DNA from: Paracoccaceae bacterium
GTDB lineage: Bacteria; Pseudomonadota; Alphaproteobacteria; Rhodobacterales; Rhodobacteraceae
DNA: 64,000 bases
Assembly: GCA_024636555.1 (NCBI GenBank)
Contig: JAGXGW010000040.1
Span: forward strand, 1 to 64,000
Direction of reading: 5' to 3'
In this document: piece after piece, positions 11,494-30,186 of the stretch
Numbering within the stretch: the stretch's first letter is position 1
Layout: every line of letters begins with the position of its first letter
Made by a program: the position numbers and the translations under genes
The notes under the pieces: model-generated
Told to the model about the DNA's origin: nothing
The model's input: the letters and a program-made list of their open reading frames with translations, nothing else
Database searches by the model: none

Positions 11494-12386
11494 AATGCGA
11501 CCTCCATGCCGTCATGGGCAAGCTCCCATCCCGCTGCAATCACCTGCGCGCGCTCCGGCGCTTCCGGCAGCAGAACGGGATTTGTATTGTTGATGTGGAT
11601 ATAAATCCGGCGACTGCTCAGACCGGCCAGCAGCGCAAGGCTGCCTTGTGGGCCCGCCATGGCGACATGCCCCATACGCGCCCCGGTTTTTTGTCCGGTT
11701 TTCGATTGCAACATATCGTCATCCGCCCAGACTGTGCCGTCGAAAAGCACCAGATCGGCGTCGGAGAGCCGCTCACACAGCCAGTCGGGAATGTCGGCGC
11801 ATCCGGGCAGGTAATGAAACACGCCGCGCGCGCTCTCAATCCGCAGGGCGATTGTTTGCTCGCCAAGTTCTTTGGTTTGCGCCAGATCAAAAGCTGAACC
11901 CTCCAGATAAAGCGGCACCTTGCCCGGCACGGCATAAGCTGTGATTTCAAGATCCAGGACAGGCGAGAACGGCTTTTCCAGAGTGACGGTCTTTTTCTTC
12001 ACACAATCAGGGTCAAGCACCCCGAAGACGGGATTATCGCTCAACACCTTCAACGTTGCGGGAGTCGCAAAGAGATCGAACGCGGTCTTCTCGCGCAGGG
12101 TCAGCAGACCTGCGATGTGGTCTACATCGCCGTTGGTCACAACGACCGCACGCAAAGGCGAGGTTCGTACCCCGGTGGGATGCAATTCGCCTGTTGCCTC
12201 CATTTGCACGCGCAAATCAGGCGAGGCGTTCAGAAGTACCCACCCTGTGCCATCAGCCGACACGGCAACCGACGACTGGGTCATCGGACTGATAAGACCG
12301 GCGCGGGCCGCATGGCAGATGTTGCAACCACAGTTCCACTGTGGCAGCCCGCCGCCTGCGCCCGCGCCTAGTATACGAATGAACAT
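11490..12386 (-). CDS. pqqB: PQQ biosynthesis protein PqqB
   Basis: A metallo-beta-lactamase-fold oxygenase that hydroxylates tyrosine during PQQ maturation. The N-terminus MFIRILGAGAGGGLPQWNC and the NCGCNICHAAR cysteine cluster are diagnostic, and NGDVDHIAGLL is the metal-binding region. It is 298 residues long, normal for the family. Only 15 bp separate it from pqqA. Confidence 0.97.
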   Translation of the reverse strand: MFIRILGAGAGGGLPQWNCGCNICHAARAGLISPMTQSSVAVSADGTGWVLLNASPDLRVQMEATGELHPTGVRTSPLRAVVVTNGDVDHIAGLLTLREKTAFDLFATPATLKVLSDNPVFGVLDPDCVKKKTVTLEKPFSPVLDLEITAYAVPGKVPLYLEGSAFDLAQTKELGEQTIALRIESARGVFHYLPGCADIPDWLCERLSDADLVLFDGTVWADDDMLQSKTGQKTGARMGHVAMAGPQGSLALLAGLSSRRIYIHINNTNPVLLPEAPERAQVIAAGWELAHDGMEVAL

Positions 12387-12401
12387 TCGCCGTCGGGCGG
12401 T

Positions 12402-12503
12402 TCAGAACAGATCTTCTGGGTTCCGGTCATCCTCGGCGGGACCGTACATGTTGATTTCCATGCCGCAGGCAATCAGTTTCGCGATTGGTTTCTTCCAAGC
12501 CAT
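12402..12503 (-). CDS. pqqA: PQQ precursor peptide PqqA
   Basis: A 33-residue ribosomal precursor too short for the ORF track. It reads MAWKKPIAKLIACGMEINMY followed by GPAEDDRNPEDLF. The Glu and Tyr of the E-x3-Y core (EINMY) become the PQQ skeleton. AAAGGA lies seven bases before the ATG. It is the first gene of pqqABCDE on the minus strand. Full-length and intact core residues suggest a functional pathway, although no quinoprotein dehydrogenase gene is in the window. Confidence 0.95.
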   Translation of the reverse strand: MAWKKPIAKLIACGMEINMYGPAEDDRNPEDLF

Positions 12504-12690
12504 CTTTTAGTCCTTTCCATCGACATAAAGCGCCGGAGGTTTTCGTGACCCCGCGCCAGTCATTATGCTAATGCCATTTCAACGGGTTTTCAGCCCTGTT
12601 GAACGGACATTCCCGTTCACATCTCCGCCATCGGCCTGCTTCCGCTGTTTGAAGGTGAAGCGACCCGAGAGGGCGATCCTGCAAAACCGT
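12504..12690 (-). other. Putative pqq operon leader with two adjacent hairpins
   Basis: No gene is visible here. If transcription starts from the GGAAC element at 12691-12715, pqqA would have a leader of about 180 nt. Two inverted repeats lie next to each other and share two bases: CAACGGG...CCCTGTTG (12580-12601, one bulge) and TGAACGG...CCGTTCA (12600-12619, perfect 7-bp arms). They could be mutually exclusive RNA structures. I know of no described PQQ leader element, so a function is inference only. Confidence 0.35.
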
Positions 12691-12715
12691 AACACGCGAG
12701 ATGAAGGATCGTTCC
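12691..12715 (-). promoter_or_regulatory. EcfG-like promoter element upstream of pqqA
   Basis: On the minus strand GGAAC-N16-TGTT. It faces away from a second copy at 12793 on the plus strand, giving a back-to-back promoter pair. The next minus-strand gene is pqqA, about 190 bp downstream. Confidence 0.5.
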
Positions 12716-12792
12716 AATTCCACAAACACATCGCACGTTTCCAGCGATGACGCGCACCACGATCGGACCCGTTGGAAACCGTCGCCGGAACC

Positions 12793-12818
12793 GGAACATA
12801 TCGGGCGGCATTCGTGTT
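12793..12818 (+). promoter_or_regulatory. EcfG-like promoter element upstream of a 58-aa membrane protein
   Basis: GGAAC-N17-TGTT, ending 37 bp before the ATG at 12856. Another GGAAC overlaps just upstream (12787), but its spacing does not fit. Confidence 0.55.
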
Positions 12819-12855
12819 TGTCTCAACGTGCAACACACTACAGAAAGGGTCTGCC

Positions 12856-13032
12856 ATGTTTGGATCGACAATCCTCGCGATCATCATATTCGGCTGTCTT
12901 CTCGCAATCTCGATCTTCGGGCTGGTGAAATCAAACGCGTCCGCCTCGAAGCTGGAAGCCACGAGAAACCGCCGCCTCACCGAACCGAGCCATGAAGGCG
13001 CTTCCCGAGCGCACGGTGCTGCGCGCTCCTGA
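12856..13032 (+). CDS. Small single-pass membrane protein (58 aa), unknown function
   Basis: ATG at 12856 follows GAAAGGG by five bases. Residues about 4-25 (TILAIIIFGCLLAISIFGLV) form one transmembrane helix. The remaining 33 residues are basic and polar with a low-complexity end. I recognise no family. It is preceded by an EcfG-like promoter and is probably co-transcribed with the 50-aa gene at 13108. The ORF track only shows a longer version starting at 12772, which would include the promoter. Confidence 0.65.
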   Translation: MFGSTILAIIIFGCLLAISIFGLVKSNASASKLEATRNRRLTEPSHEGASRAHGAARS

Positions 13033-13107
13033 CCATGGGCGAGGCGTTTCGTCGGCAAAGCCTTAAGGCAGACGCCGAGTCGTGCGACCAGTTGAAGGAC
13101 AGTCCAG

Positions 13108-13260
13108 ATGCCCAACCAGCCGAAGAAAGCCAAAGAAAAGCGCAACGAGCCCGAGGAGCGGCACAACGCACAGGGCGATCACGAAGGCGCGGCTCACACA
13201 CCGGAAGAATTCGAGGAGATGATACCGCAAAAGCAAAAGCCTCCGAAAGACAAGCGGTAG
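13108..13260 (+). CDS. Small hydrophilic protein (50 aa), unknown function
   Basis: Too short for the ORF track. The ATG at 13108 has AAGGA eight bases upstream. The peptide is almost wholly charged (MPNQPKKAKEKRNEPEERHN, then EEFEEMIPQKQKPPKDKR). It lacks hydrophobic residues and is likely disordered, like many alphaproteobacterial stress-induced small proteins. No family is recognised. It lies 75 bp after the 58-aa membrane protein with no visible terminator between. Confidence 0.5.
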   Translation: MPNQPKKAKEKRNEPEERHNAQGDHEGAAHTPEEFEEMIPQKQKPPKDKR

Positions 13261-13390
13261 CTGGGCAAGCGACGACCCAAACACGGCAGGCCGCCTTGAT
13301 AAGATGCGGTGCAATGCGGATGCATAAAGGCAACACGGCGGCTGATTTGCGCGTTTCAGACTTTTATCTTGGCTATTTTCCCAACCCGAG

Positions 13391-13416
13391 GGAACGAAAC
13401 ACCGTTTCGTAATGTT
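13391..13416 (+). promoter_or_regulatory. EcfG-like promoter element upstream of the GDH-anchor-like gene
   Basis: GGAAC-N17-TGTT, ending 37 bp before ATG 13454. That distance is nearly identical to the one at 12793. Confidence 0.55.
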
Positions 13417-13453
13417 ATCGAGGCAAAGACACAAAAAGTTTACAGGGACAGCT

Positions 13454-13930
13454 ATGCATCACCTTGGACAGCATTTGCGTAGGCGTGCGCCGGAATATGT
13501 GGTGATCGCTCTGGCCGTCACCGTATTGGTTATCGGCATTCCCTTTTTCGTCGGGGGGGTCTGGCTCATGATCCTCACAGGCGCTTGGTTCTCCATGCTC
13601 GCAGGTGCTGGACTGTGCCTGACAGGCTATTTTTTGTTCCTGAAATCTGTGATCGCCATCTGGGTCTATCTGATGACCTTTGCGGGCACGGTCTACTGGA
13701 GCTTGTCGGAAGCCGGTGCGGACGGGTTCAAGCAAATGCCTTGGCTGATCGCACCGAGTATCATTCTGTTGCTGCTTCTGCTGACCCTCCCTGTGCTGAC
13801 CGGTGAAGGTCAACGAAAAGCCAGAGCCGCTCCGAAGTTTGTTCTGTTCATCTGCGGAACGCTCAGCCTATGGAGCATCATTTTTCAGGACGAGATCGGT
13901 CACGCCGCTGCAAGCTGGGCCTTTGCCTAA
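13454..13930 (+). CDS. Stand-alone membrane-anchor domain resembling the N-terminus of PQQ glucose dehydrogenase
   Basis: A 158-residue integral membrane protein. I prefer ATG 13454 (AGGGA six bases upstream) over the ORF-track TTG/ATG at 13412. About five hydrophobic helices are visible. GIPFFVGGVWLMILTGAWF and the IAIWVYLMTFAGTVYWSLSE segment follow the pattern of the E. coli Gcd membrane domain (GGGWLVAIGGSWYY..., ALWLYAALLLGTMIWGVWEVG). No beta-propeller dehydrogenase domain follows. Being next to pqqA it could recruit or electrically couple a quinoprotein to the quinone pool, but that is inference. Similarity was judged by eye only. Confidence 0.7.
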   Translation: MHHLGQHLRRRAPEYVVIALAVTVLVIGIPFFVGGVWLMILTGAWFSMLAGAGLCLTGYFLFLKSVIAIWVYLMTFAGTVYWSLSEAGADGFKQMPWLIAPSIILLLLLLTLPVLTGEGQRKARAAPKFVLFICGTLSLWSIIFQDEIGHAAASWAFA

Positions 13931-14453
13931 CCTGAATTCGGCCTGTTTCGGACTTGCCCGCATTTGTCCGTTCCCCAGTTACATCGCCAGGAGACATCCA
14001 AACGGAGCCGTATGGTATCCGTTATCATTTCATGTGCATGAAGCGCGGTTTCAGAAAATGCATTCTGGTGAGAACTACATATCTGAAACGCCTGCGTTTT
14101 TTCCTTATTTACAACACTATTTCCACTGAAGCTGAACATAGCTGAGCGCGAAACACTTTGCATATGTCGCACGCGCTCTATATAGCGATTTGTGTTAACC
14201 GGTTATAACGCATAGCGAAGCGTGTCTCTCTACCAGTCAAGTTTGTTCGGGAGACGCAGGCAAGACAACTGCGCGTTTTATGAAGCACCTATCGGACGGA
14301 ACGGCATAATGCAGGATCATCTCACAGCCCCCTCCGTCTCGACGACGCCCGCAGCCCACATAAACGGTGCCGCTGTGTTGCTTCATTGGGCCGGGTTCTC
14401 CCGCGCACACGCGCACGGACCAGACTTTCGGGCAGGTGAGGGAACGAGTTCGA
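13931..14453. other. Intergenic region, no convincing gene
   Basis: About 520 bp of lower GC than its surroundings. It holds the near-palindrome GTTAACCGGTTATAAC (around 14194-14209) and a GGAAC at 14298 without a correctly spaced NGTT. A short open frame from 14309 (52 aa, MQDHLTAPSV...) overlaps the next gene and lacks a good ribosome site, so I do not call it. Confidence 0.4.
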
Positions 14454-14618
14454 ATGCAAAACGATGACGATCGCGAAACTGACAGGCTGGACAAGCAAAT
14501 GAAGCAACTTCTCGTCAAGATAGAAGAAGAGCCGGTTTCGCCGGAACTTCGCGCTCTCGCGAGCGAGTTGCAAAAAGCACTGAACGCGCAGCGCGCTTCA
14601 CTGAAGAAAAACTGCTGA
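14454..14618 (+). CDS. NepR-like small protein (candidate anti-sigma factor)
   Basis: A 54-residue protein, too short for the ORF track in its likely form. ATG 14454 lies ten bases after AGGGA. The central stretch LDKQMKQLLVKIEEEPVSPE followed by LRALASELQKAL resembles the NepR signature, in which two helices flank an EPvP motif and contact the EcfG sigma factor. NepR sequesters EcfG until phosphorylated PhyR binds it. No phyR or ecfG is in the window. The surrounding GGAAC promoters fit a general stress island. Recognition is by eye on a very short protein, so a generic helical peptide remains possible. Confidence 0.45.
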   Translation: MQNDDDRETDRLDKQMKQLLVKIEEEPVSPELRALASELQKALNAQRASLKKNC

Positions 14619-14621
14619 GCC

Positions 14622-14972
14622 TTACCGGACCTTGAGCAGATTCCTGACGTTCAGAACGCCGGGTATCTCGTTGACCGACGCGGTCACCAGCGTTCGCTGG
14701 AACTCCAGACCGACAGAGCCTTCAACCGTCACGATCCCGTCTCGCACCGTCACCTTCATGATCGCGCTGTCCAGTCGGCCATCCTGCGCCAGACAGGCCC
14801 GCACATCGGTGGCCAGCGCATCATCCGGAACAGGTATGGGTGGAGGTTTGGCGGGACTCGCCGGAGAGATGGGCTGTTGCACGTCAGATGGCGCATCCGG
14901 CTTGTGATGGTTCACAAGATCCGATCTGACGCGCTGCATCGGCGGGCTTTCCTTGGGATCGTCATCAGACAT
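14622..14972 (-). CDS. BON-domain protein
   Basis: 116 residues. The N-terminal 50 residues are proline-rich and charged, without a signal peptide. The C-terminal 65 residues form one BON domain (DVRACLAQDGRLDSAIMKVTV, then VTVEGSVGLEFQRTLVTASV and PGVLNVRNLLKV). BON domains bind membranes or lipids and are frequent in osmotic and general stress regulons. The gene converges with the NepR-like gene, leaving 3 bp. A perfect GGAAC-N17-CGTT element lies about 80 bp upstream. Confidence 0.8.
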   Translation of the reverse strand: MSDDDPKESPPMQRVRSDLVNHHKPDAPSDVQQPISPASPAKPPPIPVPDDALATDVRACLAQDGRLDSAIMKVTVRDGIVTVEGSVGLEFQRTLVTASVNEIPGVLNVRNLLKVR

Positions 14973-15050
14973 CGGTTACTCCATCAACGTTCTTGACCCA
15001 GCGGGCCAAGTTGTGCGCCCGTTTCCGCAAGTGACAGGACACGATAACCA

Positions 15051-15076
15051 AACGCCTCCCAAGCTGCTTTTGTTCC
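15051..15076 (-). promoter_or_regulatory. EcfG consensus promoter upstream of the BON gene
   Basis: On the minus strand GGAAC-N17-CGTT, an exact match to the known EcfG consensus. It sits back to back with the plus-strand element at 15200 in the 305-bp divergent spacer 14973-15277, which holds no other visible feature. Confidence 0.7.
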
Positions 15077-15199
15077 GTGATGCGCCAGACCGCAACGCCA
15101 ACTCTGTCACACTGGCGCGCTGTGCGAACATCATAACGCCACCACGCAATCCCATCAGACATCTCCCGCCGATGGGTCGCGCCCGAAGGAATTCAGGAC

Positions 15200-15224
15200 G
15201 GAACAAACCCGGCCTGTTTTGGTT
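15200..15224 (+). promoter_or_regulatory. EcfG-like promoter element upstream of a 73-aa membrane protein
   Basis: GGAAC-N16-GGTT, ending 53 bp before ATG 15278. Confidence 0.55.
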
Positions 15225-15277
15225 CCCCTCTCACTGGGTCATGCCTCCTGGCTGAGTCAACGCATGGAGAATTACCG

Positions 15278-15499
15278 ATGAGACCACCGGAAAACAGACC
15301 ACCCGAATACGACGTGAACCGCTCCGGGAAACAGTCCAGAAGCGCTATGATCGGCTTTGTCGCTTTGGCCTTACTGGTCATCATCGTTCTGGTCTGGTGG
15401 GTAGACGGGGGCAATCAGGGCGTTCAGACTCTGGACGGCGCACAGCCAACCGCGCCGGAACAGCAGTCTCCTGGAGAGAGAGCCGTGCCACTTGAGTGA
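15278..15499 (+). CDS. Small single-pass membrane protein (73 aa), unknown function
   Basis: ATG 15278 follows GGAG by about eight bases. There is a polar N-terminus of 22 residues, one transmembrane helix (AMIGFVALALLVIIVLVWWV) and a 30-residue tail rich in Gln, Pro and Glu. The layout equals that of the 57-aa protein at 20765, suggesting a family of small anchored peptides in this island. No known domain is recognised. Confidence 0.7.
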   Translation: MRPPENRPPEYDVNRSGKQSRSAMIGFVALALLVIIVLVWWVDGGNQGVQTLDGAQPTAPEQQSPGERAVPLE

Positions 15500-15667
15500 T
15501 GGCGCGCGGATACGGCCTATCGTGTTTCCATTCCGCCATTGCGCACACTTGCGCAGCCTGATTGAACCTCGCTTCCAGCCGCACCAGCGACCGTCCTGAT
15601 TTCCATTTTCATGTCATGCAGGTCCTGCCTTTGAAGACCTGCGAAACCCGCTTGCCCCAGAGGCCGC

Positions 15668-16285
15668 ATGATCTCGTTTCTGTCCGAATACGCCCACATC
15701 CTCAACGTGATGCTCAACGCGGCAATGGTGCTGATCTGGGTGGCCTATCTGCATTTCTTCACGGTGAACCATATAAGACAGTCACGCAACGTCGTGCATA
15801 TCGACCTCGGGGCTGCCGAAGGTGCACATTCGCGGTGTCTGGTAACCAACCTTAGCGCGAAAGCCATCTATGTTCAGGCAATTGTCGCAGAGCTTTCCAG
15901 TGATGACCGGAGCTCGATGACACAGATCACGGACAAGGACGAGATCCGCCCCGAAGACGTGGAAAATCCCCTTTCGCGCACCAATCGCGGAACCCTGCAG
16001 CCCGGTCAGACAATGGATATCGGGTCGGTGGAAAATCTTGTCAGCCGCGCACGGATTCACCTGTCCGAAGACTGGCACAGCGACGAGGTCGACGAAGTCA
16101 CGCTTACCGTCGTGGGAATATCCGGTCAGGCCGAGAGGATCTTTGCCGCAAGCAAAACATTCGAGGCCAAAAAAAGCGCGGATGGCCGCGTCTTTGTCGC
16201 GCAAAGGGTTCTGACGAAGCAGCTTCGCAAACGCGAAACCCGGGAGGCATTCAATAAAATGCTAAACGATAACACCGAAAAATAA
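15668..16285 (+). CDS. Hypothetical membrane-anchored protein (205 aa)
   Basis: Begins at ATG 15668. An N-terminal transmembrane helix (about residues 8-30, ILNVMLNAAMVLIWVAYLHF) is followed by a soluble domain of about 170 residues with a beta-rich pattern. The domain seems cytosolic or periplasmic with no catalytic motif that I can name. Its C-terminus is strongly basic (RVLTKQLRKRETREAFNKML). No EcfG-like element was found in the 168 bp upstream. Function unknown. Confidence 0.65.
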   Translation: MISFLSEYAHILNVMLNAAMVLIWVAYLHFFTVNHIRQSRNVVHIDLGAAEGAHSRCLVTNLSAKAIYVQAIVAELSSDDRSSMTQITDKDEIRPEDVENPLSRTNRGTLQPGQTMDIGSVENLVSRARIHLSEDWHSDEVDEVTLTVVGISGQAERIFAASKTFEAKKSADGRVFVAQRVLTKQLRKRETREAFNKMLNDNTEK

Positions 16286-16348
16286 TCGGCTTTGAGGGAA
16301 GAAACTGCTCCTGGAACGTCGTGGCGAGAAGGGTTCAGCCAGTTGAGC

Positions 16349-16374
16349 GGAACCCGGCCTGCGGTACCGATGTT
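16349..16374 (+). promoter_or_regulatory. EcfG-like promoter element upstream of a secreted acidic protein
   Basis: GGAAC-N17-TGTT, ending 76 bp before ATG 16451. Confidence 0.55.
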
Positions 16375-16450
16375 CAGGAACTTTCGCAACATCATGATGT
16401 TTGTGCGAAAGAGGGTCACAAGGCCCTCGGAAACATCTGAGGATATGAAC

Positions 16451-16954
16451 ATGACGAAGACAAATGGACTCGTACTCGCAGCCTTTCTGATGGCGTCCAC
16501 GTCTCCCATGGCTTTTGGCCAGACGACACCCCCGACATCGGGCGCCGATACCTCGGCAGGAACCGACACGACAACTGCCACAGACCTGCCCGTCGGTGCC
16601 ACAACAACCGATGTCGACATGGAACGCACCTTGCTGATCACCAGCCTGACCATGGACGCCGGTGACAAGGACTGGGAAGAGGAATTCTCCAACCTGTCTG
16701 ACGATGCCGAAGTCAAAATCGTCCAGCTTTCCGAGCTGAAAGACTCCGACCACGTCAGCGCGGACGGTCTGGATCAGGCGATCAGCGACATGGAAGAAGG
16801 CCGCAGCGACCTGCGCGCCGCCATTGAAGATCGCGACAGGCTGATGTCGGCGCTCGAGGATGAAGATTATGCCGCTGACGATGTCGTCGCGGCCGTAATT
16901 CAGCCGGGTGATGCTAAAGAGGTCACACTGATCGTCGATACGGAAAACGACTGA
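16451..16954 (+). CDS. Secreted acidic protein (167 aa), unknown function
   Basis: ATG 16451 has GAGG eight bases upstream; ATG 16445 is possible. A Sec signal peptide is clear (TKTNGLVLAAFLMASTSPMA followed by FGQ). A Thr-rich linker (about residues 27-60) leads to an Asp/Glu-rich helical domain (DLRAAIEDRDRLMSALEDED). The last 15 residues are hydrophobic-polar alternating. It is probably a periplasmic or exported stress protein; no family is recognised. An intrinsic terminator follows 42 bp after the stop. Confidence 0.7.
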   Translation: MTKTNGLVLAAFLMASTSPMAFGQTTPPTSGADTSAGTDTTTATDLPVGATTTDVDMERTLLITSLTMDAGDKDWEEEFSNLSDDAEVKIVQLSELKDSDHVSADGLDQAISDMEEGRSDLRAAIEDRDRLMSALEDEDYAADDVVAAVIQPGDAKEVTLIVDTEND

Positions 16955-16995
16955 TACAAAGCTCCGGCTTGGATCACCGCAACCGCAGAAAAACT

Positions 16996-17032
16996 GGGCA
17001 CTCCCGTCAAGGCGGGGGTGCCCTTTTCTTTT
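16996..17032 (+). terminator. Intrinsic terminator
   Basis: GGGCAC...GTGCCC stem with a short GC-rich inner region, followed by TTTTCTTTT. It ends the transcript of the acidic secreted protein. The rest of the spacer to 17358 (about 330 bp) holds only a 36-codon frame at 17072 (MDGTEASRTG...), which I do not call, and the promoter element at 17293. Confidence 0.75.
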
Positions 17033-17292
17033 GCCGACAGAATGCTTCGTATTGAAGGGAGAGCGGCAGACATGGATGGGACAGAAGCGTCCCGAACGGG
17101 ATCAGGGGACAGACACCGCGTCCGGGTCAGGCGTGAAACCGGAAAAACCGACCCTGTGCTCCATACCATCGCGTCCGGTTGACACATGCCTACCGCTCGT
17201 GAACCAAACGCCGGCATCCCCGGGTCGTTCCCGAATTTTTCTACGCGGCTTTATTTTTCAGCTGATCGAAAAAGTGCGCCCCGAAGCACTTG

Positions 17293-17317
17293 GGAACATC
17301 CAGTTTCGGCGCTGGTT
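17293..17317 (+). promoter_or_regulatory. EcfG-like promoter element upstream of an 83-aa membrane protein
   Basis: GGAAC-N16-GGTT, ending 41 bp before ATG 17359. Confidence 0.55.
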
Positions 17318-17358
17318 GATCATGACAAGGCACCCAACCAACGAAAGGAGCCTGTGCG

Positions 17359-17610
17359 ATGTTTGCACAAAAATGGCAGGCGATGCCGCGACTCATACGC
17401 TTCATGATCGAACACTTCGCCGACGGCGCGGTCATGGGATGCCTGTTTGGTCTCCTGGTGATCCGGCTGGATACCGCGGGGCTTGGCACGTTGCTGGAAG
17501 CAACACAGACAGCCGGACCCACGGCGCTGTTTCTGGCTCAGGCTGCGCTGTCTTTCGGCACTCTTTCGATTGCCGTAGGCGTTGTGTCGCTGAGCGAGGA
17601 AAGCGACTGA
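17359..17610 (+). CDS. Small two-helix membrane protein (83 aa), unknown function
   Basis: ATG 17359 has AAGGAG eight to ten bases upstream. Two hydrophobic helices are visible: GAVMGCLFGLLVIRL around residues 23-40 and ALFLAQAALSFGTLSIAVGV around 55-75, with short polar ends. It ends with SLSEESD. It looks like a small inner-membrane protein. No family is recognised. Confidence 0.7.
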   Translation: MFAQKWQAMPRLIRFMIEHFADGAVMGCLFGLLVIRLDTAGLGTLLEATQTAGPTALFLAQAALSFGTLSIAVGVVSLSEESD

Positions 17611-17666
17611 TCGCGACGGTTTCAATGCGTCTGGAACCTGGATGAGACTTGAAAGCGAGTGACCGC

Positions 17667-17891
17667 TCAATAGGTTCCCGGCGGATCACTGGCAGGAAAA
17701 GATTCGTCGCTCCGCTCATCCACCATATCCCAAGAGGCAGGCTTATCGTCTCTCATCTCCCCCAAGCGGTCAGGGTGGTCATCCGGCCGGTCTACGCGGC
17801 GGACGGGTACGATCTTCGGTGCCATCGAGGTGATCAACGCATAGAGGCCAATCCCTGCGCCTGCTGCCATCACAAGATTTCTGATTAACAT
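17667..17891 (-). CDS. Small membrane protein with ESFPASDPP tail (74 aa)
   Basis: I choose ATG 17891 (GGAG six bases upstream) over ATG 17903. One N-terminal helix (LVMAAGAGIGLYALITSMA) precedes a charged linker. The C-terminus is DERSDESFPASDPPGTY. A tail of the form D(E)xSxESFPASDPP recurs in many small proteobacterial proteins of unknown function, often stress-linked. No EcfG-like element was found directly upstream. Confidence 0.65.
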   Translation of the reverse strand: MLIRNLVMAAGAGIGLYALITSMAPKIVPVRRVDRPDDHPDRLGEMRDDKPASWDMVDERSDESFPASDPPGTY

Positions 17892-18001
17892 AACATTCTC
17901 CATTGTCGTGTTTGCAGGACAGTCGGTCTTGAGAGAACCGGATCGGCCTGCGCGGGTGGGGTGCGACCGTCCAGAGCAAAACAGCCGCGTTCATCTTCGG
18001 A

Positions 18002-18937
18002 TCAAATCATCGGCTGGCCGCCTGTCACCGCAATCGTGGCACCGGAAACATAGCTCGACATCGGCTCTGCCAACATCACATAGGCCGAAGCCAGTTCGAC
18101 CGGTTGTGCCGGACGCTTCATCGGATAGTTGGCCCCGAACTCGGAGACCGTTTCACCTGAAAAGCTTCCCGGGATCAGGGGTGTCCAGACAGGCCCCGGA
18201 GCGACGCAGTTCACCCTGATGGATTTATCCGCGAGAAACTGTGCAAGACCTGCGGTGAAATTCTGGATCGCGCCCTTGGTCGTGGCATAGGCCAACAGAG
18301 ACGGGTTCGGGTGATCAGAATTGATTGATGCCGTGTTGATGATACAGCCACCTCCGTCCAGATGCGGCAGAGCGGCTTTGCTCAGGTAGAACATCGCATG
18401 GATGTTGACAGCGAATGTCCGCTCCCACTCCGCATCCGTGATCTCGTCAACCGCATCGAAGCTTTGCTGATGGGCCGCGTTGTTGACCAGAATATCCAGA
18501 TGACCCAGTTCCTCGACGACGCGCGCCACGATGGTTCGACAATGTTCGGCGTCCGACACGTCTCCGGGCAGCAGCAGGCACCGGCGGCCTGTCTCCATGA
18601 TGACCCGTGCTGTATCCTTCGCATCCTCGTTTTCGTTCAGATAGCTGATCGCGACATCGGCGCCCTCGCGCGCATAGGCAATCGCCACCGCGCGGCCTAT
18701 TCCACTATCACCACCCGTGATCAGGGCCACCTGCCCTTCCAGTCGGGCCGTACCCTGCCACGATGTTTCACCGTGATCGGGTTGCGGTTCCATCTCGGCG
18801 AAACTTCCGGGGAGTTCCTGTGTCTGCTCGGGGAATGGCGGATGCGGATAGGAAGGCACGCGACGGCGTTTGGCGGCGCGTGCCTTGGCAGAGGTGGCTG
18901 TTGAACCGGTGGCGGCTTGATCGGAATGCGATGTCAT
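18002..18937 (-). CDS. SDR oxidoreductase, stress-type glucose/ribitol dehydrogenase-like
   Basis: Classical short-chain dehydrogenase. From ATG 18937 it is 311 residues. A 60-residue polar N-terminal extension (SYPHPPFPEQTQELPGSFAE) is typical of the YghA/GsiB-like subgroup found in stress regulons. NAD(P) binding is shown by GGDSGIGRAVA, and catalytic YATTK and the NNAA motif are present. The substrate cannot be read from sequence. I reject the ORF-track start at 19072 because a GGAAC-N16-TGTT element lies at 18974-18998. It ends with TGGQPMI. Confidence 0.88.
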   Translation of the reverse strand: MTSHSDQAATGSTATSAKARAAKRRRVPSYPHPPFPEQTQELPGSFAEMEPQPDHGETSWQGTARLEGQVALITGGDSGIGRAVAIAYAREGADVAISYLNENEDAKDTARVIMETGRRCLLLPGDVSDAEHCRTIVARVVEELGHLDILVNNAAHQQSFDAVDEITDAEWERTFAVNIHAMFYLSKAALPHLDGGGCIINTASINSDHPNPSLLAYATTKGAIQNFTAGLAQFLADKSIRVNCVAPGPVWTPLIPGSFSGETVSEFGANYPMKRPAQPVELASAYVMLAEPMSSYVSGATIAVTGGQPMI

Positions 18938-18973
18938 CAGTCCTGCTTCCATTTTTGTTGCGCATGCGTTCAC

Positions 18974-18998
18974 AACAAAGGGTCCGCCAGGATGTTCC
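18974..18998 (-). promoter_or_regulatory. EcfG-like promoter element upstream of the SDR gene
   Basis: On the minus strand GGAAC-N16-TGTT, 36 bp before ATG 18937. It lies between the SDR and otsA genes, so the SDR can be expressed independently. Confidence 0.55.
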
Positions 18999-19031
18999 AG
19001 ATCGCTGATGCAATGCGGGCAGTGCCGAGAC

Positions 19032-20546
19032 CTAAGTTGCCTCTGCCGGTTCCCGCGCATCTGCTGGTACACGGGTATTATTATCCGAGACCGGCGCTTT
19101 CAGGGCTGACAGAAATGTCTCTGCCCAGTTTTTTGCATCAAAGCGTGTGATATGCGCCAGCAACGCCCCGTGGCGCGCGCGGCGCTCTTTCAAAGGCATT
19201 GAGAGCGCGCGATGCAATTGTTGCGCCATATCTTCGGGATCATACGGGTTGACGATAAGAGCCTCTCGCATTTCCTCCGCAGCCCCTGCGAATTGCGACA
19301 GGATCAGCACACCCGGATTTTCGGGATCCTGCGCCGCAACATATTCCTTCGCAACGAGGTTCATCCCGTCCCGCAACGGCGTCACGAATCCGACATCGCT
19401 CTGGCGCATCAACGGGGCAAGCGTATCGCGCGGCAGCGCCCGGCAGATAAACTGCACGGGAGTCCAGTCAAGATCCCCGAACCGACCGTTGATAGAGCCT
19501 GTGAGTTGCTCCAGTTCGACACGAATGTCTGCATAGGCATCCACCTCACTCCGCGAGGGCGGAGCGACCTGCACAAAGCCGACCTTCTTCGTGAATTGCG
19601 GATAGCGCTGCAAGAACGCGTCAAACGCTCTGAAGCGCTCCGGCAGCCCTTTGGAATAATCCAGCCGGTCAACGCCGATGATCCGCTTGCGCCGGTTGTA
19701 CACCCGCGAATTCTGCAAACATGCCGCGTCGGTCCCGGGCTCCCGGGCCAGCGCGTTGAAGTCCTCCACGTCGATCCCGATGGGAAACCGGTTGACGCGG
19801 ATGGTCTTGTCACTTGTGAGGATATGATCTTTTGTCACCTTCACATCAGGTCTCTGCGCGGCAAGATAAGACTTCAGATTGCCCGCATCGGTATGGGTCT
19901 GGAAGCCCAGCAAATCGTAGTCCAGCAGCGCATCGACAAGCTCACGGTGATGCGGGGCGGCGGCAAGAAGCTCAGGTGCCGGAAAAGGGATGTGCAGGAA
20001 ATGTCCGATCTTTTGCCGACAGCCCAGCTTTCGCAGCATGGAGGCAAGCGGGATCAAATGATAATCATGGATCCAGATCAGATCATCGCGGCGTAAGAGC
20101 GGCATCAACTGGCGGGCAAAAATCTCGTTCACGCGCATATAACCGTCAAACGCTTTTGCCGTGATGTTCACAAGATCCAGCCGGTAATGGAACAGCGGCC
20201 ACAGAACGCTGTTTGAGAAGCCCAGATAATAATCTGCAAAATCATCCGGCGAGATGGGCACCCCGACACTGGTCACCGCGCCGTGCTGGCTGATCTTGAG
20301 TGGCCCCCCGGTTTTGCCCTCGCGGTTGCCATCCCATCCGAACCAAAGCCCTCCCTCGTCGTTGATCGCATCCGCCAGCCCGACAGCCAGCCCCCCCGTC
20401 TGGGTCGAGGAACTGAGATCCGCAACGCGATTGGACACGACAACCAGACGCTTTGCCCCTCCTCTCGGTAACGCAGGCGTACTTCTTCCATACGACCGTT
20501 CTGTTGCAAGAATGTGGCTACCAGGGGGAGAGGATTGTACTGTCAT
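19032..20546 (-). CDS. otsA: Trehalose-6-phosphate synthase OtsA
   Basis: GT20 glycosyltransferase joining UDP-glucose and glucose-6-phosphate to trehalose-6-phosphate. Visible are VVVSNRVA near residue 30, WIHDYHLIPLA, the donor-site RLDYSKGLPERF and the C-terminal FVTPLRDGMNLVAKEYVAAQ. From ATG 20546 (AGGTG seven bases upstream) it is 504 residues; the family is usually 460-480, and the excess is an N-terminal extension. No otsB is in the window. The trehalose could feed the treS-glgE route encoded 10 kb away. Confidence 0.95.
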   Translation of the reverse strand: MTVQSSPPGSHILATERSYGRSTPALPRGGAKRLVVVSNRVADLSSSTQTGGLAVGLADAINDEGGLWFGWDGNREGKTGGPLKISQHGAVTSVGVPISPDDFADYYLGFSNSVLWPLFHYRLDLVNITAKAFDGYMRVNEIFARQLMPLLRRDDLIWIHDYHLIPLASMLRKLGCRQKIGHFLHIPFPAPELLAAAPHHRELVDALLDYDLLGFQTHTDAGNLKSYLAAQRPDVKVTKDHILTSDKTIRVNRFPIGIDVEDFNALAREPGTDAACLQNSRVYNRRKRIIGVDRLDYSKGLPERFRAFDAFLQRYPQFTKKVGFVQVAPPSRSEVDAYADIRVELEQLTGSINGRFGDLDWTPVQFICRALPRDTLAPLMRQSDVGFVTPLRDGMNLVAKEYVAAQDPENPGVLILSQFAGAAEEMREALIVNPYDPEDMAQQLHRALSMPLKERRARHGALLAHITRFDAKNWAETFLSALKAPVSDNNTRVPADAREPAEAT

Positions 20547-20580
20547 GGGACACACCTGAGGTTCGTTCATCAATTTGGTG

Positions 20581-20605
20581 AACAAGCCAAAGCCGCAAAT
20601 GTTCC
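20581..20605 (-). promoter_or_regulatory. EcfG-like promoter element upstream of otsA
   Basis: On the minus strand GGAAC-N16-TGTT, 34 bp before ATG 20546. It is back to back with the consensus element at 20710. Confidence 0.6.
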
Positions 20606-20709
20606 CGCCGATCATCCTCCTGCTCCGCAATTCCCGTCACACAAGCGGTCAGCACATCGGGATCAGTTCTGGTTTCACCTCAAAGGCATTTGTCCGGTGC
20701 AACCCATGC

Positions 20710-20735
20710 GGAACAACACAGACCGGTGATGCGTT
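20710..20735 (+). promoter_or_regulatory. EcfG consensus promoter upstream of a 57-aa membrane protein
   Basis: GGAAC-N17-CGTT, an exact consensus match, ending 29 bp before the start at 20765. Confidence 0.7.
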
Positions 20736-20764
20736 GTTTGTCAGAAGCAATGAAGGAGACGAGC

Positions 20765-20938
20765 GTGAGCCAAGACCCAAAACCAAGCCGCGGCATGCCC
20801 CGAAGCCTGATTTACGCAATGATTCCGATCGGCTTCGTTCTGCTGGTTCTTATCCTCGTTCTGTCCGGATTCTGGACACAGGAGACTGTCGACGAACCGA
20901 ATACCGTGGTCGAGGAACCGTTGCATCCGATCGATTGA
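20765..20938 (+). CDS. Small single-pass membrane protein (57 aa), unknown function
   Basis: I prefer GTG 20765 with AGGAG six bases upstream; ATG 20750 in the same frame is an alternative and would be near the transcription start. A polar N-terminus of 15 residues leads into one helix (LIYAMIPIGFVLLVLILVLS) and an acidic tail. It has the same layout as the 73-aa protein at 15278. Confidence 0.7.
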   Translation: MSQDPKPSRGMPRSLIYAMIPIGFVLLVLILVLSGFWTQETVDEPNTVVEEPLHPID

Positions 20939-21026
20939 CGGCATCGAAATCGGCAGCCCTGCGGGTGAAATCACCGGGCAGGTCAAGACGGACGGTCGTC
21001 GTGCAGCCAATGCTTTCCAAAGTTCA

Positions 21027-21051
21027 GGAACATATCAGGCGACCGTCTGTT
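21027..21051 (+). promoter_or_regulatory. EcfG-like promoter element upstream of the PpiC/SurA-like gene
   Basis: GGAAC-N16-TGTT, ending 30 bp before ATG 21082. Confidence 0.6.
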
Positions 21052-21081
21052 GACGTTCGTACCGCAAAGGAGAACACGACA

Positions 21082-21795
21082 ATGATATATCAAACAGCTA
21101 CCAGTAAGCTGGCCCTCATCAGCGCTCTGATCGTTCCGTTGCTCGCAGCTCCCGCCTATGCGCAGGATGAACAGCCGGCGCAGGAGACCGAAGCCAGTCA
21201 GGACCAAAACGCGCAAGGTGCAGGTGGGGAAGAAAATGCCATCGTGGCACGTGTCGGTTCGGTCGATATCCGGTCGAGCGATGTCATGACCCATGTCGGG
21301 ATGCTGCCAGAGGGGGTCCGCGCGCAACCGCCAGAACTGCTGATCCCGATGGCTGTCGAACAGCTTGTGCTACGGCAGCTCATTCTTCAGCAGGACGCAA
21401 CCCAAGAGCTTGCCGAAGACCCTGCGGTCCAGATTCTTGCCGACGAAGCCGCCCAGTCCGCGCGGGAGAATGTGCTTGTCCAGTTCTGGCTGGAGCGCGA
21501 GCTTGAGAGCAGAGTGACACAGGAAGATATCCAATCTGCATATGATACGCTTCAATCAGCGTCCGAAACCGAGCTTCCCCCTCTCGATCAAGTTCGTGGG
21601 CAGGTGGAACAGCGTCTGCGCCAGCAGGAGATCGAAACCCTGACGGATGAACTTCTCGAAAGTGATCTTGTCACTTATTACGGACCAGACGGCGAACCGG
21701 TCGACGGTGCTCAGACGAACGGTGCAGGAGCCGGCGCTGATGACGCCGAAGAAGGTGATGACACCGAGACGGAAACCGGCACGAGCTCTGACTGA
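21082..21795 (+). CDS. Periplasmic SurA/PpiC-like protein lacking the parvulin domain
   Basis: 237 residues with a Sec signal peptide (LALISALIVPLLAAPAYAQD). After a Gln/Glu-rich linker, NAIVARVGSVDIRSSDV matches the SurA-type N-terminal chaperone domain, with helices LLIPMAVEQLVLRQLILQQD and following. VTQEDIQSAYDTLQS, which normally precedes the parvulin domain, is followed almost directly by the C-terminal helix (QVRGQVEQRLRQQEIETLTDE). The PPIase domain is thus absent. The tail is Asp/Glu/Gly-rich. It probably acts as a holdase chaperone. AGGAG precedes ATG 21082. Confidence 0.75.
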   Translation: MIYQTATSKLALISALIVPLLAAPAYAQDEQPAQETEASQDQNAQGAGGEENAIVARVGSVDIRSSDVMTHVGMLPEGVRAQPPELLIPMAVEQLVLRQLILQQDATQELAEDPAVQILADEAAQSARENVLVQFWLERELESRVTQEDIQSAYDTLQSASETELPPLDQVRGQVEQRLRQQEIETLTDELLESDLVTYYGPDGEPVDGAQTNGAGAGADDAEEGDDTETETGTSSD

Positions 21796-21872
21796 CCCGC
21801 AGTCACGCGCTCTGCAACAGGTCGGCACTGGCAGAAAGTCCAGAGCCGACCCCGTCCAGACCGAGGACTGCC

Positions 21873-22679
21873 ATGCAGCACTTGCAGCTAAAGAATACCC
21901 GCGCGCTCGTGACCGGCGCGAGTTCCGGCATCGGCGAGGCCATCGCGCGGGTCTTCGCCGCGCAAGGCTCTTCGGTCATCGTCAACTATCTGTCGGATCA
22001 GGAAGCGGCTGAGCGCCTCATCCGTGAGATCCGCGACAACGGCGGGCGGGGCGAGGCTGTGCAGGCCGATATCTCGACGGCTGAGGGCTGCGCCTCCTTG
22101 TTCGCTGCCGCCGAACACCATTTCGGCGGCGTCGACATTCTGGTCGCGAATGCCGGGATCCAGCGCGACGCCGCCTTTACCGAACTGAGCCTGGAAGACT
22201 GGAACAAGGTCATCGGGGTCAATCTGACCGGCCATTTTTTATGTGCACAGGAAGCTGTACGTCGGTTTCGTCGCCAAGGTCTGGATCCGGCCAAATCTCC
22301 GGCACTGGGAAAGATTATCTTCACAAGCTCGGTCCACCAAGCCATTCCCTGGGCTGGTCGCGCGAATTATGCGACGGCCAAGGGCGGCATCAAGATGTTG
22401 ATGGAGTCGATGGCGCAGGAGCTTTCATCCGAGAAAATCCGTGTCAATGCCATTGCCCCTGGGGCAATAAAGACAGCCATCAACCGCGATGACTGGGAGG
22501 ACAGGGAGGCCAAAAACGAACTTCTTGCACTGATCCCGTATGGCCGCGTTGGCGAGCCGTCGGACATCGCCAAGGCTGCCGTCTGGCTTGCTTCGGACGA
22601 GTCCGATTATGTCGTCGGCACAACATTGTTCGTGGATGGCGGCATGACGCTTTATCCATCCTTCCGCGAGGGCGGATGA
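21873..22679 (+). CDS. SDR oxidoreductase, glucose 1-dehydrogenase-like
   Basis: 268-residue classical SDR. The cofactor motif is TGASSGIGEAIA, the catalytic Ser region is IIFTSSVHQAIPW, YATAKGG is the Tyr-x3-Lys motif, and VDGGMTLYP lies at the C-terminus. It resembles bacterial glucose 1-dehydrogenases, but the substrate is unproven. It starts 78 bp after the SurA-like gene with no promoter element between, so it is likely co-transcribed with it. Confidence 0.88.
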   Translation: MQHLQLKNTRALVTGASSGIGEAIARVFAAQGSSVIVNYLSDQEAAERLIREIRDNGGRGEAVQADISTAEGCASLFAAAEHHFGGVDILVANAGIQRDAAFTELSLEDWNKVIGVNLTGHFLCAQEAVRRFRRQGLDPAKSPALGKIIFTSSVHQAIPWAGRANYATAKGGIKMLMESMAQELSSEKIRVNAIAPGAIKTAINRDDWEDREAKNELLALIPYGRVGEPSDIAKAAVWLASDESDYVVGTTLFVDGGMTLYPSFREGG

Positions 22680-22689
22680 TGATTTTACG

Positions 22690-22714
22690 GGAACAATCCG
22701 CACGCCCTTCTGTT
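22690..22714 (+). promoter_or_regulatory. EcfG-like promoter element upstream of dodecin
   Basis: GGAAC-N16-TGTT, ending 32 bp before ATG 22747. Confidence 0.6.
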
Positions 22715-22746
22715 CTTGACTCGAACCCAATTGAAAGGAGAACGTT

Positions 22747-22950
22747 ATGTCTGTAGCGCGTGTCACCGAAATTTCCTCGACATCGACTGAAAGCTTCGAC
22801 GACGCCACCCGGCAAGGTATCAAGCGGGCGTCGAAGACTCTGCGTGGTATCACCAGCGCTTGGGTGAAAGATCAGAACGTGATGATCGACAACGGCCGAA
22901 TTACCGCTTTCAAGGTAAATCTGGCTGTGACTTTTGTGCTGGACGACTGA
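22747..22950 (+). CDS. Dodecin (flavin-storage protein)
   Basis: 67 residues forming the dodecin fold: one beta strand (VARVTEISSTS), a helix (SFDDATRQGIKRASKTL) and two strands (TSAWVKDQNVMIDNG, then FKVNLAVTFVLD). The Trp and Gln in AWVKDQ stack on and bind flavin in characterised dodecins. It stores or buffers riboflavin or FMN as a dodecamer. AAAGGAG precedes the ATG. Confidence 0.93.
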   Translation: MSVARVTEISSTSTESFDDATRQGIKRASKTLRGITSAWVKDQNVMIDNGRITAFKVNLAVTFVLDD

Positions 22951-22968
22951 GCCCCGGTTAAATCTTGC

Positions 22969-23004
22969 AACTGCGCTGCCTGTCTTCGGGCGGCGCAGTT
23001 TCAC
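22969..23004 (+). terminator. Intrinsic terminator after dodecin
   Basis: A 12-bp stem AACTGCGCTGCC...GGCGGCGCAGTT with one mismatch, followed by TTTC. Only a weak U tract. The remaining spacer to 23126 contains an open minus-strand frame after the TPP enzyme stop (ALIKADDAGTFRVATEQPL) that may be a coding remnant; I cannot assign it. Confidence 0.6.
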
Positions 23005-23126
23005 GTATCGTGAAAGCGCCCTGCCCTTTCAGCACGCTTGACAGCGGATCCGACAGTGGCTGCTCGGTGGCGACGCGGAATGTCCCGGCATCGTCCGCCT
23101 TGATCAGGGCGGCGACCGCCACGGGA

Positions 23127-24896
23127 TCAGGCCCAAGACCGCTTGATGGACTGCTTCACGATCTCGTAGCCGTCCGGATCGCCTTTCAACACGGATCTGG
23201 CAAAGCTCTTTGCCTGAGAATAGGTGACGTGTGGCGGCAGCGAAGCCACGTTAGGATCGACGATTGCATCTATCACCACCGGCCGGTCGGCCTGTAGCGC
23301 CGCGTCCCATGCGGGGCCAACCTGTTCCGGTCGTTCAACCCGTATGCCTTTTAACCCCAGAAGCTCGGCATAGGCGGCGTAGTCGAGTTGCGGGATATTC
23401 TGTGTTTGCTCTACCTTGGGAAATCCACCCATGGCGCGCAGTTCCCAAGTCACCTGATTCAGATCACCATTGTTCAGCACGCAGATGATCATTCGCGGGT
23501 CTGTCCAATCCTTCCAGTACTTGGCCACGGTGATAAGGCTGCTCATACCCAACATTTGCATTGCACCATCGCCGACGAAGCCGATGGCGACCCGGGCGGG
23601 GTGGCAGAACTTGGCCGCCGTGGTGTATGGCACGCCGGGGCACATCGTTGCCAGAGTCCCTGACAGTGAGGCCATATGCCCACGCCGGAACTTCATGCCC
23701 CGCGCGAACCAGTTGGCTGACGAGCCTGAATCGGCAGAAACGATGGCATTGTCCGGCAATCGTTCGGAACATGACCAAAACAGCAGTTCCGGGTTTACCG
23801 GATCGGCAGACAGGTGGGCCCGCGCGTGTTCGCCTTCCCACCAATTCGTTATCTTGCTCTCGAGACTCTCGCGCCAGCTGCGATCTGTTTTTTGCTTGAG
23901 ATGGGGCAACAGTGCCCGCAGCGTCAATGCAGTGTCACCGACAAGATTGACCTCCATGGGATAGCGGATGGAAAGCATCTTGGGATCGATGTCGATCTGC
24001 ACGCCTCGGGCCTGACCTTCCTTCGGCAGGAACTCGGAATAGGGGAAACTCGAGCCGACCATGAGAAGGGTGTCGCACCCCATCATCATGTCCCATGAAG
24101 GCCGCGTGCCCAACAGTCCGATCTGCCCGGTGACAAATGGCAGGTCATCAGGAACCGCCGCGCGCCCAAGCAGCGCCTTGGCGACGCCCGCGCCCAAAGT
24201 TTCAGCTGTTTCGATCACCTCATCGGTCGCGTTCAGCGCGCCGGCACCGACCAGCATCGCAACCTTGCTGCCGGAGTTCAGCACTTCCGCCGCCTCGCGC
24301 AGCTTGTCCTCTCCCGGAACGATGCGCGGTTGCGCATAGCCCATGCCCGAATGGACCGTGCCATGTTCGCGCGCAGGTTCCTTGTGTGGTGCTTCTTGGA
24401 CGTCATTGGGAATGATGATGCAGGTGACGGTGCGTTCTGCCTTGGCAATCCGCAATGCCCGGTCGAGCAGGTGGCGCATCTGCTCGGGGGTCATGCATGT
24501 ATGGACATAGTCCCCTGCGACATCCTTGAACAACGAGGCGATGTCGATTTCCTGCTGATAATGCCCGCCAAGAGCGGCACGGGCCTGCTGTCCGACAATC
24601 GCCACGACCGGTTGATGATCCAGTTTGGCGTCATAAAGACCGTTCAGCAGGTGGATCGCGCCCGGCCCTGAAGTCGCGAGGCACACGCCGACTTCGCCGG
24701 TCCATTTGGCATGCGCACAGGCCATGAACGCCGCTTCCTCCTCGTGCCGAACCTGAATGAATTCCAGATCATCACCGAGTGCCGTGTTCATGGCGCCGAC
24801 GATACCGTTGATGCCGTCGCCGGGGTACCCGTAGATCCGTCGGACACCCCATTCCTTCAGGCGTTTCAGCATATAATCGGCAACGGTATCAGCCAT
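23127..24896 (-). CDS. Thiamine-pyrophosphate enzyme, pyruvate oxidase (PoxB)-like
   Basis: 589 residues with the three-domain TPP architecture. VRHEEEAAFMA holds the catalytic Glu in the N-terminal domain, a central FAD/NAD-like domain follows, and GFVGDGAMQ...ICVLNN is the C-terminal TPP-Mg motif. Closest by pattern to the quinone pyruvate oxidase/acetolactate group. Full FAD binding and the PoxB C-terminal membrane helix cannot be confirmed; the C-terminus (YEIVKQSIKRSWA) is short. It lies 84 bp downstream of the degP-like gene in the same direction and may share its promoter. GAGGAG precedes ATG 24896. Confidence 0.82.
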   Translation of the reverse strand: MADTVADYMLKRLKEWGVRRIYGYPGDGINGIVGAMNTALGDDLEFIQVRHEEEAAFMACAHAKWTGEVGVCLATSGPGAIHLLNGLYDAKLDHQPVVAIVGQQARAALGGHYQQEIDIASLFKDVAGDYVHTCMTPEQMRHLLDRALRIAKAERTVTCIIIPNDVQEAPHKEPAREHGTVHSGMGYAQPRIVPGEDKLREAAEVLNSGSKVAMLVGAGALNATDEVIETAETLGAGVAKALLGRAAVPDDLPFVTGQIGLLGTRPSWDMMMGCDTLLMVGSSFPYSEFLPKEGQARGVQIDIDPKMLSIRYPMEVNLVGDTALTLRALLPHLKQKTDRSWRESLESKITNWWEGEHARAHLSADPVNPELLFWSCSERLPDNAIVSADSGSSANWFARGMKFRRGHMASLSGTLATMCPGVPYTTAAKFCHPARVAIGFVGDGAMQMLGMSSLITVAKYWKDWTDPRMIICVLNNGDLNQVTWELRAMGGFPKVEQTQNIPQLDYAAYAELLGLKGIRVERPEQVGPAWDAALQADRPVVIDAIVDPNVASLPPHVTYSQAKSFARSVLKGDPDGYEIVKQSIKRSWA

Positions 24897-27037: not shown

Positions 27038-28159
27038 CTACTTCACACTGAGAAATCGCTCAATTTCCTGCATTAGGGCCTCGACCAATTCAGCGTTGAC
27101 GCTCTCACCCTCAAACCGGATCGAATGCCCCCTCTGATCGGTGGCGTGCATCATCGAAATGCCGCTCGCGAGCCTCACGACAGCCCCGCCACTTTCCGCA
27201 GATGGCATCGGCTTGTTCCGGGGTCGACCGGGTGCTTTCGACGGCTTCTCCAGCGCCTCGACACCAAGGACGACCGGCTCCAGCAACGCCCACTCCCCTC
27301 CAGCGTCGCTGGCGTCACCGGATATCTGGCCTGCTTCAAGGGCCCGCCGCAACTCGGTGGTGAGACCGGCACGGATCGCTGCAACGATCCGCAATCCCTG
27401 CCGTTCCGACAGCTCATGTGCATGGGACAGTAAATCGCCCAACTCTTCATGCAGCTCCGCAAAGGCCCGAATCTTTGAGCGCTTTGCCTTGCTCCCTGCG
27501 TGGAACAGTGCGCTCACAGCTTCTTCAACAGAGCCGAACGCCCCCTGCCCCGCAGCCATCACCGCAATGCGACCACGCTCGTACTGGCTCAGATCGCTGC
27601 GGATCTCGTTTTCTTCCACCATCGCGACATAGGCCTCCGCCGACGCACTCTGCACGCGAACGATCGCCTTGATCCTTGTGTACGCCTCCCCCCGCGCCTC
27701 GACCATCAAAGCGCGCACCGCCATCAACCGGCGCCAGCCCGAGATCAGACCATAACGAGGGCTATCCGGATCTCCCTGCGGATTGGGATAGACCTCGATC
27801 GGCAGGCGCAATCCATGGGCGCGAATCGACGCCTTCAATTCCTCCATCTCTTCGGCATCCACATTGACGCGGTCGCGTGCGAGGGCTTCGGAGTGGATAT
27901 CGGCGATCCTGATCTCCTCGACGATCAGCCCCTCCGCCAAGGCTTTGCGGTAGCGTTCCGCATCGGTTGAATCGCGCGCGGCCTTCAACCGCTCCTCCGG
28001 ACCAAATGCGGAAGACCCCGCCGCGGCCTCGCCTGCTATCTGGGCAATCGGAGGCATCGGCCCCAACCCGCCATTGCCGGAGGTTTCGCGCGCGAAACCA
28101 TCCTCGATGTCTTTGAGCGCATCCGCGCTCGGTGCCTCCAGACGTTTGCGCTTAGCCAT
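27038..28159 (-). CDS. parB: Plasmid partition protein ParB
   Basis: 373 residues. The ParB N-terminal nuclease-like domain has DIHSEALARDRVNVDAEEME and the box YGLISGWRRLMAVRAL. The region after YVAMVEENEIRSDLSQYERG contains the HTH that binds parS. It overlaps parA by 8 nt (ATG 28159) and is translationally coupled to it. It binds parS and stimulates ParA ATPase for segregation. The 16-bp parS candidate lies within its own 5' region and again just past its 3' end. Confidence 0.93.
   Translation of the reverse strand: MAKRKRLEAPSADALKDIEDGFARETSGNGGLGPMPPIAQIAGEAAAGSSAFGPEERLKAARDSTDAERYRKALAEGLIVEEIRIADIHSEALARDRVNVDAEEMEELKASIRAHGLRLPIEVYPNPQGDPDSPRYGLISGWRRLMAVRALMVEARGEAYTRIKAIVRVQSASAEAYVAMVEENEIRSDLSQYERGRIAVMAAGQGAFGSVEEAVSALFHAGSKAKRSKIRAFAELHEELGDLLSHAHELSERQGLRIVAAIRAGLTTELRRALEAGQISGDASDAGGEWALLEPVVLGVEALEKPSKAPGRPRNKPMPSAESGGAVVRLASGISMMHATDQRGHSIRFEGESVNAELVEALMQEIERFLSVK
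28082..28099. promoter_or_regulatory. Candidate parS centromere inside parB
   Basis: GGTTTCGCGCGCGAAACC, a perfect 18-bp palindrome containing the same 16-mer as 26972-26987. In parB it encodes part of DGFARETS near residue 20. A related 17-bp form, GGTTTCGCAGCGAAACC, lies inside parA at 29255-29271 and may be a weaker site. Confidence 0.65.
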
Positions 28160-30106: not shown

Positions 30107-30186
30107 CATAGCAGGCTTGAGCGCGGGTGCTTTTTCTGCAACAATCGGACACGCACCGAAAGAGTGTAAACAAGAGCGGGCAAACA

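Follow-up and report, generated by a model that had tools for sequence, protein, structure and literature searches.

Genomic context of the locus

The open reading frame (ORF) at 14454-14618 on the plus strand encodes a protein of 54 residues, MQNDDDRETDRLDKQMKQLLVKIEEEPVSPELRALASELQKALNAQRASLKKNC*, in which the motif EPVS is located between two helical stretches, as the preliminary description of this DNA had stated. The ORF lies in the window, i.e. the whole analysed stretch of 64 kb that forms the first part of the 72.7-kb contig C68, from an assembly of 80 contigs which is 80% complete. The frame extends upstream to a GTG at 14367, which would give a product of 83 aa; homologues start near the ATG at 14454 and not near this GTG. 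On sequence grounds, the ORF is real. An overlapping ORF at 14310-14467 was set aside, its GC content at codon position 2 (0.60) being unlike that of the neighbouring genes.

The 54-codon gene is embedded in a region with a high density of GGAAC promoter-like sites (Table 1). The relaxed pattern was found 15 times between 12 and 24 kb, compared with 0.68 expected occurrences and a maximum of 4 in 200 shuffles, and so the GGAAC island that had been postulated is real. The remaining 52 kb of the window contain three sites of the GGAAC-N16/17-[CT][GA]TT type. Since the strict -10 motif CGTT yields just 3 sites in the island versus 0.48 expected, the claim of enrichment rests on the relaxed count. 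Directly upstream of the 54-codon gene, the pattern search detected no EcfG-type promoter site.

Several neighbouring genes recur near relatives of the 54-aa protein in other genomes. A homologue of the convergently oriented BON-domain gene (54% identity) adjoins the relative from the same genus (locus L123), homologues of the SDR-family oxidoreductase (68-84% identity) are found near relatives in L002, L005 and L123, and a homologue of the OtsA-like protein adjoins the second NepR-like copy of the same-genus genome G489 (L124). Genes resembling GlgB, TreS-maltokinase, GlgE and OtsA (1707-9366 and 19032-20630; the Pfam scan covered 3893-7180) form a trehalose/glycogen set flanking the island. 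The region 9370-12386 resembles a PQQ biosynthesis block (PqqB, C, D and E by sequence), and a PqqB homologue (73% identity) is located beside the G489 island in L124.

The location on an accessory replicon, also claimed previously, is confirmed by a Rep3-type initiator and a ParA-like ATPase within the window. Its last part (50000-64000) carries what we take to be bacteriochlorophyll and photosynthesis-type genes. This cluster shares the contig with the plasmid initiator region (28152-31467) and thus belongs to the accessory replicon.

Table 1. Features in and around the GGAAC island of the window
Feature	Position	Strand	Basis or remark
EcfG-type regulon island	12000..24000		15 GGAAC-N16/17-[CT][GA]TT sites
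EcfG-like promoter site GGAACGAAACACCGTTTCGTAATGTT	13391..13416	+	start of ORF 13412-13930; pattern match only
Candidate NepR-like anti-sigma gene	14454..14618	+	54 aa; translation, relatives, hhalign to canonical NepR, two-helix model
BON-domain protein, convergent neighbour of the 54-aa gene	14622..14972	-	PF04972, 5.4e-12
EcfG-like promoter site GGAACAAAAGCAGCTTGGGAGGCGTT	15051..15076	-	upstream of the BON gene; pattern match only
SDR-family oxidoreductase	18002..19072	-	family taken from annotation of homologues
Trehalose-6-phosphate synthase-like (presumably OtsA)	19032..20630	-	homologue with 67.5% identity in L124
ParA-like partition ATPase	28152..29756	-	PF13614
Rep3-type replication initiator	30127..31467	+	PF01051, PF21205

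A probable distant relative of NepR

The NepR-like core of the protein is LDKQMKQLLVKIEEEPVSPELRALASELQKAL. AlphaFold2, run on the single sequence, predicts helices at residues 4-25 and 30-53 with a mean pLDDT of 84.6, and the break between them coincides with the EPVS/P stretch. Size and predicted shape thus agree with those of NepR proteins (about 50-70 aa, two helices, an EPVP-like turn). A Foldseek search with this model was uninformative, returning only generic helical hairpins and no match below E 1, and the predicted two-helix fold alone proves nothing about NepR identity.

Scans of the protein against Pfam, NCBIfam and PHROG gave no match. With respect to the curated NepR profile (PF18557, cut-off 25.7 bits), even the top member of the NepR-like class reaches just 20.5 bits, compared with 41-58 bits for the canonical NepRs encoded in this taxonomic family. 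Searching the PDB with the 54-aa sequence retrieved chance matches only (e.g. vinculin), and the class profile found no NepR there but a spurious match to p47 at E 0.009; the canonical NepR profile retrieves four NepR structures (3t0y_B, 2lfw_B, 4qic_B and 5uxx_B).

For profile comparison, relatives of the protein were gathered blind to gene context by single-protein tblastn against plasmids and by a genome search, and canonical NepRs were gathered separately via Pfam NepR across the taxonomic class. The related-locus search among genome contigs gave no relative. The relatives occur on plasmids and in genomes of Rhodobacterales and rhizobia, show 30-45% identity to the 54-aa protein in other replicons and 53% over 38 aa in the same genus, and have the core LDxxLxxLLxxIExEPVPPRLRELAxxLQxAL in common. 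In a leave-one-out HMM of these relatives, the 54-aa protein scores 59.3 bits, while none of 2000 shuffles exceeds 10.6 bits. Profile-profile comparison of the NepR-like family with the canonical NepRs gave a probability of 93.9 and E = 1.6e-7 in the EPVP register, with a score of 39.6 versus a maximum of 17.2 among 100 column shuffles. Without the two NepRs found through the NepR-like family alignment, the score was 34.2 (shuffles, at most 20.0), and the 54-aa protein alone reached 29.0 against the canonical NepRs (shuffles, at most 15.3). A bridging protein on a Ketogulonicigenium plasmid (L114), whose gene adjoins an EcfG gene, is matched by the canonical profile at 3.8e-7 and by the NepR-like profile at 1.8e-8.

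Distant kinship of the 54-aa protein with NepR, which holds back the general stress response, is therefore very probable, in a divergent sister class which the curated models miss. The absence of a NepR profile match, named beforehand among the grounds for rejecting such kinship, is indeed what Pfam returned, and it is overruled by the profile-profile comparison together with the gene neighbourhood. The proposed NepR-like identity accordingly stands for a divergent class and falls for membership in Pfam NepR.

Relatives are mostly located beside EcfG-type sigma factor genes

Among the eight plasmid loci obtained context-blind by single-sequence tblastn, six have an EcfG-type (ECF15) sigma factor gene within 250 bp of the relative, namely those of Paracoccus alcaliphilus, P. 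aminovorans, Paracoccus sp. MA, Ciceribacter, Mesorhizobium and Sinorhizobium americanum. A rough binomial estimate, which assumes independent placement, puts the chance of this adjacency at ~1e-14. Two of the six neighbouring sigma factors were scanned, and both match Sigma70_r2, Sigma70_r4_2 and PhyR_sigma2 above cut-off. Several of the relatives are unannotated.

A family-wide search took one genome per genus from the same taxonomic family, 298 in total. In 15 of these genomes, the NepR-like profile matched at 17 places, with an EcfG-type sigma factor gene within 1.5 kb at 10 of the 17. Over all searches, several matches are without a nearby sigma gene (L002, L004, L010, L033 and L037). Two of the sigma-linked loci, L042 and L045, encode canonical NepRs with PhyR next door; true NepR is thus within reach of the profile, in a context that leaves no doubt about it. 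The sigma genes in L006, L112 and L118 are also flanked by trehalose or glycogen genes. In L034 (1690-2073, genome G136), the sigma gene next to an intact NepR-like gene is present as two small ORFs that abut each other (66 and 60 aa) and is possibly broken.

An unrelated small helical hairpin or an unexpressed ORF with a chance EPVS turn would likewise be short, lack a Pfam match and show a generic two-helix fold. This explanation is very improbable, as the 54-aa protein outscores all 2000 shuffles on both profiles, the profile-profile score is about twice that of the best shuffle, adjacency to EcfG-type genes is repeated, and the gene is kept beside the BON gene in a genome of the same genus.

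The EcfG-type sigma factor of the genome

In a tree of 39 EcfG-type sigma factors, those encoded beside canonical NepR are split from those beside the NepR-like class with support of 99/98 on both sides, and the neighbour label is less scattered over the tree than in every shuffle. The genome of the window encodes a sigma factor of the non-canonical clade: the EcfG on contig C33 (188 aa) is placed inside it (99/98), with an inner node (99/97) uniting it with 12 entries flanked by NepR-like genes. It is the only EcfG-type match above cut-off in this 80%-complete assembly, and it has no NepR-like gene beside it. The inventory of the genome thus comprises one non-canonical EcfG and one NepR-like protein, on different contigs, and the gene in the window, with the EcfG on C33 and PhyR not found, adjoins neither sigma factor nor phyR gene, whereas most of its relatives do. 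The C33 EcfG start is preceded, at a distance of 63 bp, by an EcfG-type site, which suggests that this sigma factor is autoregulated. On the same contig (L023, 13158-14361), superoxide dismutase-like and ferritin-like genes with more GGAAC-type sites form a second stress island.

Pfam NepR detected no canonical NepR in the whole 80%-complete assembly, nor was PhyR found there. These results bear on the earlier proposal of an additional NepR that tunes the standard chromosomal PhyR-NepR-EcfG switch. Such a role would be in accordance with the distant NepR homology and with PhyR-strength matches in three genomes of the same genus (G487, G488 and G489), and the canonical set could be missing from an assembly of ~80% completeness. 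However, its canonical partners were not found, the sole EcfG detected belongs to the non-canonical clade, and the 54-aa protein falls outside Pfam NepR, in which the canonical NepRs of the family score high. We therefore regard the proposal as quite improbable and consider it more likely that the protein is the unlinked partner of a non-canonical EcfG.

Unlinking of sigma factor and NepR-like gene within an island is plausible, because the homologous island of G489 has two NepR-like copies, separated by 13-30 kb from the EcfG-type sigma factor of that genome. The first copy, like the window gene, has a BON gene next to it, with the sigma gene 13 kb away, and the second adjoins OtsA. This second copy (L124, 6742-6936) is located about 17 kb from the first, and the two have diverged.

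A putative anti-sigma factor, possibly acting in trans

We propose, with a probability of about 0.65, that the observed ORF, homology, neighbourhood pattern, sigma clade and promoter-site enrichment reflect a divergent NepR-like two-helix anti-sigma factor, for which we infer binding, partner, mechanism and release as follows. By analogy with NepR, the soluble protein would use the amphipathic helices around its EPVS turn to clamp an EcfG-type (ECF15) sigma factor at its regions 2 and 4 and so keep it away from RNA polymerase. Its likely target is the C33 EcfG, the only one detected in the genome; most members of the non-canonical clade of this sigma factor have a NepR-like gene next door. Release would occur via a PhyR-like protein or by another route, and the GGAAC promoters in the stress island surrounding the 54-aa gene would be among those controlled. 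Counting against this explanation, the gene is unlinked to EcfG here, has no curated match and carries no EcfG-type site directly upstream. Further points against it are the loci without a nearby sigma gene, the uninformative structure search and the binding behaviour of the Methylobacterium NepR paralogues described below.

The main rival is a PhyR-binding decoy (an anti-anti-anti-sigma factor), which would retain the PhyR surface of NepR, not its EcfG surface, and thereby free canonical NepR to hold EcfG. There is a precedent in Methylobacterium extorquens, where the two NepR paralogues MexAM1_META1p1275 and META2p0735 bind PhyR, with no EcfG binding detected for either (PMC4814048). We judge a decoy unlikely here, as the 80%-complete assembly yielded neither PhyR nor canonical NepR, and the relatives adjoin EcfG genes, not PhyR. 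In addition, the near-complete same-genus genomes G485 and G490 contain no PhyR-strength match and one EcfG-strength match each.

The anti-sigma reading can be extended, tentatively and with more doubt than confidence, to a second, separately evolving NepR-like class which would serve as the dedicated brake of plasmid-riding sigma factors of the EcfG2/RpoE5 type in Rhodobacterales and rhizobia and could work without PhyR. In the present case, a photosynthesis plasmid would then restrain a host stress sigma factor in trans.

Comparison with known systems

Extra EcfG copies with unexplained control are present in about half of the completed alphaproteobacterial genomes (PMC3892343). Many of the EcfG copies examined here adjoin a tiny NepR-like gene which is missed by standard annotation, often without any gene call. 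The class profile provides a way to find partners of extra EcfGs, and the question of their control becomes directly testable. For this organism, our results suggest that a stress sigma factor and its brake are encoded on different contigs, possibly on different replicons.

A paper describing the NepR-like class as such was not found in the open-access literature, subscription papers being outside the scope of the search. Judged by sequence comparison, one member is already in print. The class itself accompanies another type of stress sigma factor and not the standard PhyR-NepR-EcfG switch. Lang et al. 2018 (PMC6180224) reported an unannotated RsiA1/RsiA2-like ORF beside rpoE5 (SMb21484, encoding an ECF15 sigma factor) on pSymB of Sinorhizobium meliloti and presented it as a single case of unknown significance without describing a recurring class. 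On pSymB of S. meliloti AK21, the ORF adjoining the rpoE5-like sigma gene (L108, 2561-2737) fits this description and is matched by the class profile at E 9.3e-15.

On the sigma side, the non-canonical, plasmid-borne EcfG2 of Rhizobium etli, whose control by NepR has been called "currently unclear" (PMC3892343), represents the same pattern of plasmid-borne EcfG-like factors; an ORF of the class was not found beside EcfG2 in R. etli CIAT 652 or R. leguminosarum (L109, L110). Related variations include a weak NepR (25% identical) beside PhyR in R. sphaeroides (PMC5830050) and a locus in Rubellimicrobium where PhyR and EcfG are reported to occur without NepR (PMC12148442). The M. extorquens paralogues resemble the window gene as NepR paralogues located away from the phyR locus; they differ in that PhyR binding and no EcfG binding was found for them, whereas an EcfG gene lies next to most relatives of the window protein.

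With NepR (PF18557), the window protein shares its size, the two helices around an EP[VIL][PS] turn, profile-profile homology and the link of its family to EcfG-type sigma factors. It differs in the hhalign register by Leu in place of the Tyr of helix 1 and by LA in place of LL in helix 2, followed by a longer LQxAL tail, and its class, below Pfam detection, goes with EcfGs of the non-canonical clade, in most cases with no PhyR nearby. A close parallel is the S. meliloti rpoE5 ORF, which is plasmid-borne, unannotated and located on the opposite strand next to a non-canonical ECF15 sigma gene; it adjoins its sigma factor, whereas the putative EcfG partner of the window protein is encoded on another contig.
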